A stretch of DNA of 64,000 nt from Cryobacterium cryoconiti. GTDB taxonomy: Bacteria > Actinomycetota > Actinomycetes > Actinomycetales > Microbacteriaceae. Shown here piece after piece: positions 17,638 through 48,863 of this stretch. The stretch is taken from NCBI RefSeq assembly GCF_004403065.1, contig NZ_SOHA01000035.1, positions 1 through 64,000 of the forward strand, given 5' to 3'. Positions within the stretch are counted from its first letter, which is position 1. Every line of letters begins with the position of its first letter. A program made the translations under genes and the position numbers. A model generated the notes under the pieces. The model was not told the origin of the DNA. It did not search any database and worked only from the letters and a program-made list of their open reading frames with translations.

Positions 17638-17709
17638 TCCGCCGTGGTGTAATGGCAGCACGACAGCCTTTGGAGCTGTTAGGTCTAGGTTCGAGTCCTG
17701 GCGGCGGAG
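17638..17709 (+). tRNA. tRNA-Gln (anticodon TTG)
   Basis: The acceptor stem TCCGCCG/CGGCGGA pairs over all 7 bp. The anticodon stem ACAGC/GCTGT encloses the loop CTTTGGA, giving anticodon TTG (reads CAA). The T-loop is TTCGAGT. Discriminator G is at 17709; CCA is not encoded. A TTGACA at 17605-17610 may be the -35, but no good -10 follows. It lies 63 bp before glmU, a tRNA-Gln/glmU pairing I recall from other actinobacteria. Confidence 0.95.
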
Positions 17710-17772
17710 CACTTGATTGGCGTCACCATCCGGTCTTTACCGGGCGGCTCCACAGAAGCTAGAGGAAACCAC

Positions 17773-36914: not shown

Positions 36915-36990
36915 GCCCCCGTAGCCCAATGGCAGAGGCAGACGACTTAAAATCGTCACAGTCTGGGTTCGACCCCCAGCGGGGGCACCA
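36915..36990 (+). tRNA. tRNA with anticodon TAA (Leu codon UUA), class I-shaped
   Basis: The acceptor stem GCCCCCG/CGGGGGC, D-stem GCC/GGC, anticodon stem GACGA/TCGTC with loop CTTAAAA, and T-arm CTGGG-TTCGACC-CCCAG are all complete. Discriminator A73 and CCA are encoded. Total length is exactly 76 nt. The variable region is only 5 nt (ACAGT), whereas tRNA-Leu normally has a long class II variable arm. It would read UUA, a very rare codon here. Leucine identity is inferred from the anticodon and A73. Confidence 0.85.
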
Positions 36991-42418: not shown

Positions 42419-44626
42419 CTAGTGCCGGGCGGGCACCACGAACCGCTGCCAGGCCCAGGCAGCCACGCTGAGCGCCGCGAACACGCCGGCCCCCGCCCAC
42501 CACAGGCTGACACCACCGTCACCGGGCCAGAACAGCCCGGCGGGGGAGAGAACCCCGAACATGATGGTGAACGCCAGCACGGTCAGGGCCGCCCAGATCG
42601 GCGGCGACCAGCTGAGGATGCTCCGCCCGCTGGTGCGTCCGATCGGGATGAGCACGAGGGCGGCCGACCCGATCGCGGCCAGCACGACGCTGGTGGCGAT
42701 CTCCGCCGCGAACGCGCTGAGGAATCCGCTGGCCTGCGGCAGGAGGCCCAGCGTGAGCCAGCCGAGCAGGGCCAGCGCGATCAGGCTGCCGGCCCGCAGT
42801 GCGGCGAGCTGGCCGCGCCTGCGCCCCGGAAGGCCGGGTGCTGCGGCGACGGATCCGAGCAGCCCGAAAACCAGGGCGGGGTGAATCTCGAATGCCCGGG
42901 AGGCGAGAGCGGTCGCGGCGACGAGCAGCAGGTAGCGCGGGAGGAAGGTGACGGATGCCCGCTCGCACCACACCCGTGAACTCCACCAGAGCGGAACGAG
43001 CGTTCCGACCGCGTTGACGACGACGAGGGCCGCCATGACCGCCAGAAGCAGCCGCAGGTAGGCCGGCTGGCTGCTCACCGGGCCCGACAGCATGACCAGC
43101 GTCGCCGCCGCTGTCACGGCCGCACCGGCCACCAGCCACCGGTTCAGCGGCAGGTCGGGTGCGGTCTCGAACTCGACGCGGCTGCGGTTTCGGCCCGCGA
43201 TCGAAACGGTCTGCCAGAACGGGCGACCGTTCCGGGCCCGGGAAACGGTTCCAGCGAGGAGGCGCGCGGGAACGCAGAGCAGCAGCAGGGCTCCGAAGGC
43301 GAGAAACGCCGCCTGCACCCAGGAGACCGGCGAGGTGGACCACGGCGCCGGCACGGCGGTCGCGAACAGGGTCGGATCGTTCCATCCGCCCGGCACCGGA
43401 GCAGGCAAGAGCGCTGAGGGTGAAGAGGCCTGCGGGTGAGGTGGTTCCTGGCCCGGTGCACCGGGTACGGTGCTCTCCGGAGCGGGGGCGGAGGACGCCG
43501 GCGGTGCAGTCGCACCCATGGTCGGGATCGGGGCGCCGGGGCCCGTGGTGTCGGGCGTTGCCGCGGCCGCCGGCCCGAAGAGCACCTCCACGCCGGGACT
43601 GCCCGGGCCCAGGTTGCCGGCCGGGTCCCGCTGCACCGCGATGACCTGGTGGGACCCGGCGGCGACGCCGCCGGCGAAACAGCTCCAGGACCCGGAGACG
43701 ACGACGGCGCTGCAGACCGAATAGGCGCCGGAGAAGACGGTCACGGTCGCGTCATCCTCGCCGGAACCGGAATAGGTGGTGCCGGACAGCGGCACCCGGT
43801 CGCCGCCCACGGGCGCGCTCACGATGGGGGCCGTCGGGCGGTCCAGGTCGAAGTCGAGGCTGACCGGTGCGCTCGCATTCGACCAGGAGGGTGCGCTGTA
43901 GGACGTTTGCTGGCTCGCCGACACGGAGACCGCTCCGCCGGCGACGTTGCCGGTGAACGTGCAGGACCAGGCGCCGGACGCGTCCGCGGTGGCCGTGCAG
44001 CGCTTCCCCCCGGCCAGGGAGACGACGACGGATGCCGCCGGATACCCGCTCCCGCGAACGGTGCCGTTGGTCAGTGCGAGGCCGGTCGGGCCCCCGGTCA
44101 CGACCGGTGCGGACAGCACGGCGATGGTCTGCTCGGCAGCCGATTCGGGGGCACCCGTGACGACGACGCGCAGTCGCACGTCGGGACCACTCGGCAAAGA
44201 CACCGCCGTGCAACTCCACACCGCGGCGGCGTCGACCACCGCGAAGCAGAGCGGGTCCTGGTCGGAGACGGGGGAGAGCAGCTGGATCTCCCGCCCGACT
44301 TCGCCGGTGCCGGAAATCGTCGTGGTGCCACTGCCGACGAAGCTGCCGGGTGCCGGGCTCGTGATGGTCGGTGCCAGGGTCGTCGGGCCGGTGGATTGCG
44401 TCGATTCCGGGGATGCCGTCGGTTCCGTCGAGTTCGGGGTGGGCGGCGGCGTGGGGGCCGGGACGGCGACGGCGGCCACCGACGAGCCGAGCGTGAGCAG
44501 GCCCACGGTCAGCGCGCCGATCAGGGCGACGATCATCGGGGCAGACCGTGCACGGAGACCGGAGGCGAACCGCCGACCGGATCGCCCGGACTCGGAGCCC
44601 GAACCGGACACAGTTCTACCGCGCAT
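42419..44626 (-). CDS. Large Ig-like-repeat polytopic membrane protein, unknown
   Basis: A 735-residue protein. An N-terminal transmembrane/signal segment (~23-50) is followed by a Pro/Thr/Ser linker and three bacterial Ig-like repeats (each with GSG or SGTG strands and a WSC/SWSC motif, so paired cysteines). A second Pro-rich linker and seven to eight C-terminal transmembrane helices end the protein. The Ig part is probably outside. It resembles no transporter I recognise. ATG 44626 has AGGGG 7-8 nt upstream; ATG 44647 would add 7 residues. It converges with the response regulator. Confidence 0.75.
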   Translation of the reverse strand: MRGRTVSGSGSESGRSGRRFASGLRARSAPMIVALIGALTVGLLTLGSSVAAVAVPAPTPPPTPNSTEPTASPESTQSTGPTTLAPTITSPAPGSFVGSGTTTISGTGEVGREIQLLSPVSDQDPLCFAVVDAAAVWSCTAVSLPSGPDVRLRVVVTGAPESAAEQTIAVLSAPVVTGGPTGLALTNGTVRGSGYPAASVVVSLAGGKRCTATADASGAWSCTFTGNVAGGAVSVSASQQTSYSAPSWSNASAPVSLDFDLDRPTAPIVSAPVGGDRVPLSGTTYSGSGEDDATVTVFSGAYSVCSAVVVSGSWSCFAGGVAAGSHQVIAVQRDPAGNLGPGSPGVEVLFGPAAAATPDTTGPGAPIPTMGATAPPASSAPAPESTVPGAPGQEPPHPQASSPSALLPAPVPGGWNDPTLFATAVPAPWSTSPVSWVQAAFLAFGALLLLCVPARLLAGTVSRARNGRPFWQTVSIAGRNRSRVEFETAPDLPLNRWLVAGAAVTAAATLVMLSGPVSSQPAYLRLLLAVMAALVVVNAVGTLVPLWWSSRVWCERASVTFLPRYLLLVAATALASRAFEIHPALVFGLLGSVAAAPGLPGRRRGQLAALRAGSLIALALLGWLTLGLLPQASGFLSAFAAEIATSVVLAAIGSAALVLIPIGRTSGRSILSWSPPIWAALTVLAFTIMFGVLSPAGLFWPGDGGVSLWWAGAGVFAALSVAAWAWQRFVVPARH

Positions 44627-44866
44627 CTCTTCACCCCTGGTGACCATTCCACGGGTCACGGCCGGGAAAGTCAACGCGCGACACGCACTGTGACGCAAAT
44701 GGCCCCCGTTCGGCCGACCGGGAGCCATGGTGCATACTGGCGCTGGCCCCTCCGGGTGCTGATTTCCCCCGACGAGTAAAGGGCGTTCCGTGGCCGTGGT
44801 CACCGTTCCGGCATCCCTCCGGGAGACCTCCCGGCCACGCACCCCGACGGCGAAGGCGGTGCGTTG

Positions 44867-46099
44867 ATGCTCGACCTGTCCCCGCGCCCGGTGGACCGTT
44901 CGTGGCTGACCCCCGAACTGTTCTGGCCTGCCCTCACGACCGCGACGGCGCACCTCGACACCCCGGTCGCCGCGGTGCACCTGGACGCGCTACGGCACAA
45001 CACCCACGACATGCTCGACCGCGCGGCCGGTACCCCGCTCCGGGTGGCGTCGAAGTCCATCCGCGTCCGCGGCGTGCTCGAGGCGATCCTGGCCCTGCCC
45101 GGCTATCGGGGCGTGCTCGCCTACACCCTGGCCGAGGCACTCTGGCTGGCGGAGACGGTGACGGATGTCGTCGTCGGCTACCCCACGGCCGACCGGGCCG
45201 CGATCCTGCAGCTGAGCCGTTCGGAGCGGCTGGCCGCGACCGTCACGCTGATGGTGGACTCGGTCGCGCACCTCGACGTCATCGACGCGGTGCTCCCGCC
45301 GGGCAGCCGGGCCCCGATCCGGGTCTGCATCGACCTCGACGCATCCTGGGACGCCCCGCTGCTCGGCCACCTGGGCGTGTGGCGCTCGCCCGTGCACACG
45401 CCGGCCGACGCCCGTCGCCTCGCGGTCGCCATTCTGGCCCGGCCCGGTTTCCACCTCGTCGGGATGATGTCCTACGAGGCCCAGGTGGCCGGGGTCGGCG
45501 ACCGGCCGGCCGGCAGACCGGTCCGGGGGATGCTCAACCGGTGGGTGCGGGGGCGGTCCGTCGCCGAGATCGCCGAGCGCCGCGCCGCGGCCGTGAGCGC
45601 GGTGCGGGAGGTCGCGCCCCTCGAATTCGTGAACGGAGGCGGAACCGGTTCGGTCGAGACCACGCGCGGCGACGCATCCGTCACTGACGTCGCCGTCGGC
45701 AGCGGTTTCTTCGGGGGGCACCTGTTCGACAATTATGCGAGCTTCCGGCCCGCGCCGGCGGCCGCGGTCGCCTTCTCGGTGGTGCGGAAGCCCCGCCCCG
45801 ACATGGCCGTCCTGCTCGGCGGCGGGTGGGTGGCCTCCGGGGTTCCCGGCGCCGACCGGGTGCCGCGCCTGGTCTGGCCGGACGGCCTCCACCTGGTTGC
45901 GCGGGAGATGGCCGGTGAGGTGCAGACCCCGCTGACCGGCCCTGGCGCGGCCCGGCTCGGGGTCGGCGACCGCGTGTGGGCGCGGCACACCAAATCGGGG
46001 GAGCTGAGCGAGCACGTGAACGAGGTTGCACTGGTCGAGAATGGGCAGGTGGTCGACATCCTGCCGACCTACCGTGGCGAGGGGAAGGTGTTCCTGTGA
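44867..46099 (+). CDS. PLP-dependent amino acid aldolase/deaminase, alanine-racemase fold
   Basis: A 410-residue protein of the D-threonine aldolase/D-serine dehydratase-like group. The PLP Schiff-base lysine is in LRVASKSIR. FVNGGGTGSVE binds the PLP phosphate. The C-terminal HTKSGELSEHVNEV gives the histidine cluster used for a metal in D-threonine aldolases. The ATG follows GAAGG; a TTG 3 nt upstream is possible. First gene of a three-gene operon with GTGA and ATGA overlaps. The exact substrate is unknown. Confidence 0.8.
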   Translation: MLDLSPRPVDRSWLTPELFWPALTTATAHLDTPVAAVHLDALRHNTHDMLDRAAGTPLRVASKSIRVRGVLEAILALPGYRGVLAYTLAEALWLAETVTDVVVGYPTADRAAILQLSRSERLAATVTLMVDSVAHLDVIDAVLPPGSRAPIRVCIDLDASWDAPLLGHLGVWRSPVHTPADARRLAVAILARPGFHLVGMMSYEAQVAGVGDRPAGRPVRGMLNRWVRGRSVAEIAERRAAAVSAVREVAPLEFVNGGGTGSVETTRGDASVTDVAVGSGFFGGHLFDNYASFRPAPAAAVAFSVVRKPRPDMAVLLGGGWVASGVPGADRVPRLVWPDGLHLVAREMAGEVQTPLTGPGAARLGVGDRVWARHTKSGELSEHVNEVALVENGQVVDILPTYRGEGKVFL

Positions 46100-47409
46100 G
46101 TGCGAGCGGAGCGGTGTGGCGCAACTGGGCCCGGAACCAGGCGGTGACGCCGGTGCGCGTCGAGCGGCCGTCGACCGTCGCCGCCGTGCAGCGTGCCGTG
46201 GTCGCGGCCGGCAAGGTGGGCCTCCGGGTCAAGGCCGTGGGCTCCGGGCACAGCTTCTCGGGCATCGCCCTGGCCCCCGGGGTGCAGCTCGACCTGTTCG
46301 ACCTCGCCGGCCTGATCGACGCGGATGCCGCGTCCGGCCGGGTCACCCTGGCCGCCGGAACCCGCCTGTTCGAGTTGCCCCGGCTGCTGCGTCCGTACGG
46401 CCTGGCCCTCGCCAACATGGGCGACGTGGACCGGCAGACCATCTCCGGCGCACTTTCCACCGGAACCCACGGCACCGGCGGGCGTTTCGGCGGGCTGGCC
46501 ACTCAGGTTGTGGCCCTGACCCTCGTCACCGGCGACGGCTCCCTGTTGCACGTGAGCGAGACCGAGAACCCGGAGCTGTTGCCGGCGGCCCGGATCGGGC
46601 TGGGCGCGCTCGGCATCGTCGTGGACGTGACCGTGCAGTGCGTGCCCGCTTACCTGCTGCACGCCATCGAGGCATCCGAACCGCTCGAGGAGGTGCTCGA
46701 GCGCTACCTCGACCGGTCCGACCGGCACGACCATTTCGAGTTCTACTGGTTCCCGCACACCGAAACCGCGCTGACCAAGACCAACACGCGCCTGCCGGTG
46801 ACCGACGAGCGGTCCCCGTTGGGCGCCGTCTCCCGCTGGGTCGACGACGAACTTCTCGCGAACGGGGTGTACCGGGGCATCTGCGCGCTGGGTGCGCTCG
46901 CGCCGGCCACCGTGCCCCGATCCACCCGGCTCGCCACCCGGCTCAGCGGGCGACGCGAATTCACGGACGTCTCCCACCGGGTGTTCGTGACGAACCGCAC
47001 CGTGCGCTTTCAGGAAATGGAATATGCGCTGCCGCGGGCCCTGGTCCCCGCTGCGCTGCGGGAGGTGCGGGAGCTGATCGCCGCGCGCGGCTGGCGCATC
47101 TCCTTCCCGGTCGAGGTGCGCTCGGCCGCAGCCGACGACGTGTGGCTCTCCACTGCCAATGGCAGGGACACCGGTTACATCGCCGTGCACCGGTATTACC
47201 GGGAAGATCCGGCCGCCTACTTCCAGGCGGTCGAAGCCATCATGCGCGCGCACGGCGGGCGCCCGCACTGGGGCAAGATGCACGACCGGGATGCCGCCTC
47301 CCTCCGCGCCGAGTACCCGCATTTCGACGACTTCCTGTCGGTGCGTGACAGGCTTGACCCGGAGCGCCGCTTCGCCAACAGCTATCTGGAAAGAGTCCTC
47401 GGTCGATGA
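46096..47409 (+). CDS. FAD-dependent sugar-lactone oxidase (D-arabinono-1,4-lactone oxidase family)
   Basis: A 437-residue VAO-type flavoenzyme. The FAD-binding PCMH domain has KAVGSGHSFSGIA and STGTHGTGG. The C-terminal ALO domain ends with HWGKMH, FDDF and DPERRFANSYLERVLG, the family signature. Relatives oxidise D-arabinono-lactone, L-gulono-lactone or alditols. It is translationally coupled both upstream (GTGA) and downstream (ATGA), so it works with the PLP enzyme and the GH1-fold protein. Electron acceptor and substrate are not shown. Confidence 0.88.
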   Translation: MSASGAVWRNWARNQAVTPVRVERPSTVAAVQRAVVAAGKVGLRVKAVGSGHSFSGIALAPGVQLDLFDLAGLIDADAASGRVTLAAGTRLFELPRLLRPYGLALANMGDVDRQTISGALSTGTHGTGGRFGGLATQVVALTLVTGDGSLLHVSETENPELLPAARIGLGALGIVVDVTVQCVPAYLLHAIEASEPLEEVLERYLDRSDRHDHFEFYWFPHTETALTKTNTRLPVTDERSPLGAVSRWVDDELLANGVYRGICALGALAPATVPRSTRLATRLSGRREFTDVSHRVFVTNRTVRFQEMEYALPRALVPAALREVRELIAARGWRISFPVEVRSAAADDVWLSTANGRDTGYIAVHRYYREDPAAYFQAVEAIMRAHGGRPHWGKMHDRDAASLRAEYPHFDDFLSVRDRLDPERRFANSYLERVLGR

Positions 47410-48863
47410 GTAATAGCAACACCCCCGCCGCACGGGCCTGGGAACACCGGGCGGGGGAACTGGGTGACCGGCTGCCCGACGGTTTCACGGTGGGCGTGGC
47501 CACCTCAGCCTTCCAGATCGAGGGTGGCGCCCGGGAGGGCGGCCGCGGCGAATCGACCTGGGACCCGTTCACGGCCGCCGCCGGGCGCATCCGTGACGGT
47601 TCCAACGCCTCCGTGTCGACGGATCACTTCAACCGGCTCGACGAGGACGTGACCCTGCTCCGCGAGCTGGGCATCGACCACTACCGCTTCTCGCTGGCCT
47701 GGGCCCGGCTGCAGCCGGACGGCCGGGGTGCGCTCAGCCGGGCCGGCACCGCCTTCTACGACCGTCTGCTCGACGGGTTGCTGTCCGCGGGAATCAGCCC
47801 GATGGCCACCCTGTTCCACTGGGATACCCCGCTGCGGTTGCGCGGCGGCTGGCTGAACCGGGACACCGCCATGCGTTTCGGCGACTACGCGCACCAGGTG
47901 GGCGAGGTGTTCGGGGACCGGATCGACTCCTGGCTGACCCTGAACGATCCCGCGACGGTGACCCTGAACGGGTACGCCCTCGGCACGGATGCCCCGGGTG
48001 AGGCCCGGCTGTTCGGCGCCCTGCCCGCAGCGCATCACCAGCTGCTCGGCCATGGCCTCGCCGTGCAGGGCCTGCGCGCCGCCGACGTGCGAGGCCGGAT
48101 CGGGATCGCCAACGTGCACTCGCCCGTGCAGGCGGCCAGCGGCCGCGAAGCCGACGAGGTCGCCGCCGCGCTCTTCGACGTGCTGCACAACCGCCTCTAC
48201 GCCGACGCCGTACTGCTCGGCCGCTACCCGGAACCGCCCGAGCCCTACCAGGTGCCGCTGAGGATGCTGCTGGAGACCGAACCGGACGACCTGCGCACCA
48301 TCCACCAGCCGCTGGACTTCTATGGCCTGAACTATTTCCAGCCGAGCCGGATCACGGCCGGCCCGGCGGCCCCGAAGACTCTCACCGGACCCCCGCCCGT
48401 CGGGCCGCCGGAGAAGGTCGTGGCGTTCCCCTTCCACGTCACCGCGATGCGCGAGTTCCCGGTGACCAACGCGGGCACCGCCATCGCGCCCGAATACCTC
48501 GGCGTGGCCCTCGCCGAGCTGCGGGACCGCTACGCGGAGCACCTGCCTCCCGTCTGCATCACGGCCGGCGGAGCCAGCTTCCCCGACGTGGCCGACAAAT
48601 GGGGGGCCGTGCACGACCCGGCCCGGATCGACTACCTGGCCGAGCACCTCACGACGGCGCTCGCCGCGGTCGCTCCCGGCGGGATCGCCGAGGGCGTCAC
48701 CCTCCAGGGCTACACGATCTGGTCCCTGCTGGACAGCTTCGAATGGACGGCCGGCTACACCCAGCGGTTCGGCCTCGTGCACGTCGACTTCCAGGATGGA
48801 ACCCGCACCCGCACCCCCAAGTCCTCCTACCGCTGGCTGCAGAGGGTGCTCTCCGCCCGCTGA
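47406..48863 (+). CDS. GH1 (beta-glucosidase) fold protein lacking both catalytic glutamates
   Basis: A full-length (485-residue) GH1 barrel. Sugar-binding landmarks remain: FQIEGG (Gln37), FHWDTP (His138), YGLNYF, WSLLDSFEW (Trp439, Glu446, Trp447) and RFGLVHVD. The acid/base motif NEP is NDP (Asp181). The nucleophile motif TENG is TAGG (Ala387), removing the catalytic nucleophile. Retaining glucosidase activity is therefore unlikely. The frame is intact and coupled to the oxidase gene (ATGA), so this is not simple decay. It may be a sugar-binding or regulatory pseudoenzyme, or have altered chemistry. Confidence 0.9.
   Translation: MSNSNTPAARAWEHRAGELGDRLPDGFTVGVATSAFQIEGGAREGGRGESTWDPFTAAAGRIRDGSNASVSTDHFNRLDEDVTLLRELGIDHYRFSLAWARLQPDGRGALSRAGTAFYDRLLDGLLSAGISPMATLFHWDTPLRLRGGWLNRDTAMRFGDYAHQVGEVFGDRIDSWLTLNDPATVTLNGYALGTDAPGEARLFGALPAAHHQLLGHGLAVQGLRAADVRGRIGIANVHSPVQAASGREADEVAAALFDVLHNRLYADAVLLGRYPEPPEPYQVPLRMLLETEPDDLRTIHQPLDFYGLNYFQPSRITAGPAAPKTLTGPPPVGPPEKVVAFPFHVTAMREFPVTNAGTAIAPEYLGVALAELRDRYAEHLPPVCITAGGASFPDVADKWGAVHDPARIDYLAEHLTTALAAVAPGGIAEGVTLQGYTIWSLLDSFEWTAGYTQRFGLVHVDFQDGTRTRTPKSSYRWLQRVLSAR

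Follow-up and report, generated by a model that had tools for sequence, protein, structure and literature searches.

A GH1-fold protein of Cryobacterium maintained under selection after loss of its catalytic glutamates

To our knowledge, glycosidase-derived pseudoenzymes are known mainly as single cases. In animals, the catalytically inactive GH1-like repeats of Klotho bind sugar-mimicking FGF motifs, and in beta-Klotho one of the two glutamates is replaced in each domain, as described in two papers (PMC7828330, PMC10229096). In rice, Os4bglu14 and Os9bglu33 carry Gln at the acid/base position of an otherwise intact GH1 protein, according to PMC1781453. For active members, PMC5148593 assigns the pocket residues E187, E399, R97, Y331 and N329 to catalysis and Q39, H142, N186, W444, E451 and W452 to glycone binding. 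We found no report of a bacterial GH1 pseudoenzyme in the open-access papers searched.

Here we describe a GH1 gene in a stretch of 64,000 nucleotides from Cryobacterium cryoconiti (contig NZ_SOHA01000035.1, hereafter the window). The Cba3 beta-glucosidase of Cellulomonas biazotea (PDB 8znv, 8znw) keeps NEP and TENG, whereas the window protein reads NDP and TAGG. Like the animal pseudo-glycosidases alpha- and beta-Klotho, it is predicted to combine a GH1 fold with missing catalytic glutamates. In contrast to Klotho, a tandem-domain FGF co-receptor, it is bacterial, has a single domain of 485 residues and is encoded in an operon, and catalytic loss recurred several times in the bacterial GH1. 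With the rice proteins of PMC1781453 it shares the natural loss of a catalytic glutamate; these, however, keep the nucleophile and lose the acid/base, whereas GH1 of Cryobacterium loses the nucleophile first. The plant-type (myrosinase-like) state, with the acid/base lost and the nucleophile kept, was seen in none of 133 aligned rows, and the window protein lacks both residues.

The GH1 gene of the window and its distribution

The reading frame on the forward strand translates without internal stops, and its start codon ATG shares bases with the stop codon TGA of the preceding gene, which encodes ALO, an FAD-linked oxidase-like protein (ATGA, 47406-47409; Table 1). The earlier note, made from the same DNA, was thus right that the frame is full length and coupled to its neighbour. 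In a profile search, residues 21-483 matched Pfam Glyco_hydro_1 (PF00232) with E 5e-121. This whole-domain match and a predicted (beta/alpha)8 fold, which appeared sound in the structure model, place the protein in PF00232. Its score against the beta-glucosidase equivalog TIGR03356 was 440.4 bits, below the curated cut-off of 478.5, which leaves it outside that family. A GH1 retaining beta-glycosidase requires the acid/base Glu in NEP and the nucleophile Glu in TENG or TEGG; Asp181 and Ala387 stand in their places. Codons and Pfam match hence bear out what the note had claimed, a full-length GH1 protein with both catalytic glutamates replaced. The glycone set is complete in the window protein (Gln37, His138, Asn180, Trp439, Glu446, Trp447), and NEP and TENG are intact in both further GH1 genes of this genome. 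A PHROGs search matched one unnamed family, and plasmid records held three relatives, all below 60% identity.

Table 1. Position of the GH1 gene, its operon partners and its altered sites in the window
Feature	Coordinates	Strand	Basis
PLP-fold protein (alanine-racemase N-terminal domain), first of the coupled trio, start approximate	44864..46099	+	
ALO, FAD-linked sugar-lactone oxidase-like protein, TIGR01679, GSGHS motif kept	46096..47409	+	
GH1-fold protein, 485 aa, both catalytic glutamates absent	47406..48863	+	
Asp181, acid/base position, TLNDP, codon GAT	47946..47948	+	translation and alignment
Pro-rich variable loop, about residues 318-338, low pLDDT at 324-338	48357..48419	+	
Ala387, nucleophile position, ITAGG, codon GCC	48564..48566	+	translation and alignment

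The four nearest species (91-94% identical) carry the same two replacements, and the nucleophile Glu is missing in 50 of 55 Cryobacterium orthologues; together this excludes chance or a sequencing error. An orthologue was present in 55 of 57 Cryobacterium genomes, full length in 51 and in pieces in four; of the remaining two, one gave a 41% match only (G043) and one none (G055). Among 52 aligned Cryobacterium rows, five keep both glutamates, 25 lack the nucleophile only and 22 lack both. Three unaligned copies, the split or frameshifted ones of G002, G008 and G015, were left out of the aligned counts and read separately; they carry DEP in the acid/base motif and TSLG in the nucleophile motif, which gives the 50 of 55. 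The copies in pieces comprise an intact reading frame with an insertion (G051), two copies ended by contig ends and one frameshifted copy, whose genome is 83% complete and has its PLP, LemA and AlkZ genes split too. The insertion, about 60 residues in frame and rich in Gly, Pro and Arg, lies close to residue 322, within the variable loop, and is found in G051 (L134), G002 and G015 (L135-L138) and G008 (L139); the contigs of G002 and G015 break within it.

The family search covered 398 genomes sampled from a larger group. At a match threshold of E 1e-140, 67 genomes matched, ten of them Cryobacterium, and the 57 others were added. Outside the genus, 67 of 76 rows (Arthrobacter relatives included) keep both glutamates, seven lack the nucleophile only and two lack both; L181, which keeps both, was counted here following the genome grouping. 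Matches at or below 50% identity (save five outgroup rows), rows with identical cores and the G024 paralogue L140 were excluded from the counts. Outside the genus, one match with both glutamates (G328) carried a flag for an in-frame TGA. Operon homologues that keep both residues, from which the note would have concluded on a strain-specific lesion, thus literally exist (5/52 in Cryobacterium, 67/76 outside); the conclusion is nevertheless wrong, given the 50 of 55 orthologues without the nucleophile.

One orthologous gene can be traced across 128 rows, and its intact and nucleophile-less copies mostly share one genomic location. The transition from enzyme to non-enzyme can therefore be tested directly by comparison of close relatives, in a series where the losses follow a recurrent order and partner genes have been deleted naturally. 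Proteins of this kind match GH1 models strongly, yet counts of beta-glucosidases in genomes from cold environments should leave them out.

Pocket residues in the nucleophile-less copies

We transferred both residue sets of PMC5148593 to the window protein by motif. In the nucleophile-less clades, the catalytic sites 94, 181, 309, 311 and 387 changed 7, 9, 11, 15 and 8 times, against 1, 0, 1, 3 and 0 changes in the intact relatives, whose tree is three times as long. The glycone sites 37, 138, 180, 439, 446 and 447 changed 0, 1, 16, 3, 0 and 0 times in the same clades. Gln37 was kept in all 56 nucleophile-less rows and His138, Glu446 and Trp447 in 55 each; 22 rows have Arg or Ser in place of Trp439, 39 lack Asn180, and Trp358, the aglycone Trp as assigned by motif, is retained in only six. 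In the group of G002, G008, G015 and G051, Trp139 has become Arg in all four and His138 Gln in two. The sugar-binding residues reported as kept in the note (Gln37, His138, Trp439, Glu446, Trp447) are hence all present in the window protein, but retention does not extend to the whole nucleophile-less set, with Trp439 and Asn180 lost as above and four genomes without Trp139.

Between catalytic and glycone sites the difference in changes was not significant in a rank test (p 0.08); a Fisher test with a cut at seven or more changes gave p 0.013, at a threshold picked after the data had been seen. Moreover, 104 sites change at most once in the intact relatives, and 67 of these never change in the nucleophile-less clades. 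Gln37, His138, Glu446 and Trp447 are no better conserved than other sites invariant in intact relatives, and these residues may thus be held for folding.

Four rows (L018, L019, L033, L191) keep both glutamates, yet Trp439 is replaced by Arg and Tyr311 is lost; as read from these sequences, pocket remodelling may precede nucleophile loss. We also considered a new interaction surface in the nucleophile-less copies, since R107, D397 and R286 vary among intact relatives but are fixed in these copies. This was dropped because all three are likewise fixed in the five both-Glu Cryobacterium copies and because ALO has a similar count of sites that separate Cryobacterium from others (10/429 against 15/450 at p <0.01 in the comparison with ALO).

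Persistence of GH1 without its operon partners

The trio runs in the order PLP, ALO, GH1, each stop codon overlapping the next start, and is followed by genes for LemA and HtpX. The His of the ALO GSGHS motif presumably has a role in FAD attachment. Among 72 both-Glu rows, PLP and ALO lie directly upstream of GH1 in 54, plus three on short loci; 13 have neither, and two on short loci can be judged only partly. In Cryobacterium, 39 of 57 genomes gave an ALO match and 32 a PLP match. Seventeen species, which form one clade of the GH1 tree, lack ALO and PLP genome-wide and keep a nucleophile-less GH1; an Ig-domain gene lies upstream in 17/17 and LemA downstream in 16/17 (the other stretch ends first), and the ATGAAT start region was seen in 16 of the 17 rows. 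Six further Cryobacterium genomes with ALO and without PLP also keep GH1. From the 17 species it follows that the nucleophile-less GH1 outlasts the operon there, and this rules out a role as ALO subunit as a general explanation.

The same distribution bears on a broader alternative, in which the GH1 barrel is a structural or allosteric partner, first of all of ALO or the PLP protein, and needs no ligand, its pocket being irrelevant. Coupling of the operon in most relatives would fit this, as would the erosion of catalytic residues in the pocket next to the constancy of most other invariant sites. Nevertheless, with 17 species lacking both proteins and six having ALO alone, neither can be an obligate partner. 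The sites that appear newly constrained are so throughout Cryobacterium, and ALO has a similar number of them; a pocket without relevance is hard to reconcile with Gln37, His138, Glu446 and Trp447 being retained in all or all but one of the 56 nucleophile-less rows. We hence regard such a ligand-free scaffold as unlikely.

We rather assume, with fair but not high confidence, that the protein is a pseudo-glycosidase under selection, which probably binds sugar and would work independently of its operon partners. That it is under selection with the GH1 catalytic pair lost is well supported; retained sugar binding by the window protein is plausible. The ancestor was probably a GH1 beta-glycosidase within the PLP-ALO-GH1 operon of Microbacteriaceae; the nucleophile has been lost repeatedly and then, in some lineages, the acid/base, with the rest of the protein under purifying selection. 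As judged from sequence, the nucleophile-less protein would no longer hydrolyse glycosides and might hold a ligand resembling a sugar at the base of the former glycone pocket by Gln37, His138, Glu446 and Trp447, possibly as a sensor, carrier or regulator. Ligand binding is suggested by the pattern of residue changes together with precedents such as the binding of FGF motifs by Klotho. In agreement with this assumption, the conserved non-hydrolytic role that the note had preferred over decay gains from purifying selection, retention in 55/57 genomes, repeated loss and survival beyond the partners. More tentatively, one may speculate on a bacterial counterpart of Klotho, in which GH1 enzymes became non-catalytic sensors of sugars or sugar acids independently in about eight Microbacteriaceae lineages, the nucleophile going first and the sensor outliving the operon.

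The surroundings of the trio vary. Divergent from it in the window lies the gene of a large protein with bacterial Ig-like domains (42419-44980, reverse strand), which scores weakly (54 bits, cut-off 150) against an FGLLP-motif membrane protein model; this gene adjoins GH1 in the 17-species clade. At L119:5481-7114, the genes downstream of GH1 encode an ABC-2 permease and an ATPase and run convergent to it; an ABC ATPase occupies this position in many other Cryobacterium loci and is absent there in the closest relatives of the window. Long open reading frames beside GH1 of an Arthrobacter relative matched nothing in Pfam and probably represent antisense frames. Elsewhere in the window, tRNA genes for Gln (TTG, 17638-17710) and Leu (TAA, 36915-36990) were found.

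Order of loss and constraint

For the tree of 133 rows, the two catalytic columns were removed before building. It calls for at least 8 changes of state at the nucleophile position and 10 at the acid/base position, counts that do not by themselves give a direction; the outgroup and most rows outside Cryobacterium retain Glu. The nucleophile-less rows fall into nine maximal clades. In a set of 34 rows (29 Cryobacterium, 5 others), holding all 24 that lack the nucleophile together cost 92.6 log-likelihood units (p-AU 5e-6, somewhat optimistic as the constraint was set after a first tree had been seen), and a single nucleophile loss inside Cryobacterium is rejected. The acid/base is kept without the nucleophile in 32 rows. 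In eight of the nine clades some member retains the acid/base, with p 0.008 in a sign test on eight clades, which may not all be independent since several forks are unresolved.

This order, nucleophile first in 32 rows and the reverse in 0/133, is what one would expect if nucleophile loss had opened another reaction that uses the kept acid/base, e.g., inverting transfer or phosphorolysis. However, 24 of the 133 rows, including the window, have lost the acid/base as well. Erosion also affects the residues that tune the glutamates, Asn309 and Tyr311, and the nucleophile is replaced by Ala, Leu, Gly, Ser, Val or Thr; a shared replacement was found among the orthologues at neither catalytic position. 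New chemistry, which the note had also proposed, thus found no positive support, and we consider it improbable.

Constraint was assessed for chosen groups as medians of pairwise Nei-Gojobori dN/dS, for 37 nucleophile-less copies, all from Cryobacterium. The nucleophile-less groups gave 0.125-0.165, with 0.148 for the window clade (0.165 with two more species), 0.160 for the NDP/ITASG clade, 0.159 for the TADP clade, 0.133 for the TEP clade and 0.125 for the 17-species clade. Groups with both glutamates ranged over 0.046-0.185 (Paenarthrobacter 0.046, Agreia 0.087, Subtercola 0.156, two Cryobacterium 0.185). For genes beside the nucleophile-less GH1, we obtained 0.089-0.280 for PLP and ALO, 0.110-0.186 for AlkZ, 0.044-0.137 for HtpX and 0.016-0.069 for LemA. 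Nucleophile-less GH1 is hence constrained about like PLP and ALO, and less than LemA and two of the four both-Glu groups; the constraint is real but not extreme. In the 17-species clade none of the 17 GH1 genes has a stop, with about 9 expected per lineage at 0.27 neutral changes per site by a crude estimate. The eroded active site, the operon partners, lost one inside the other in two steps, and the two of 57 genomes without an orthologue might suggest that the gene is dispensable and slowly decaying in this cold-adapted genus. This is most improbable, as it is contradicted by these dN/dS values, by the absence of stops and by the predicted sound fold of the window copy, and the sole frameshifted Cryobacterium copy is the one in the 83%-complete genome with other split genes.

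Outside Cryobacterium, tandem GH1 pairs occur in three Nocardioides and one Propionibacteriales MAG (L089, L098, L103, L105). One copy of each pair has NEP and TESG; the other combines SEP or AEP with TEAG or TECG, and three of these four other copies show HAD or HGD in place of HWD.
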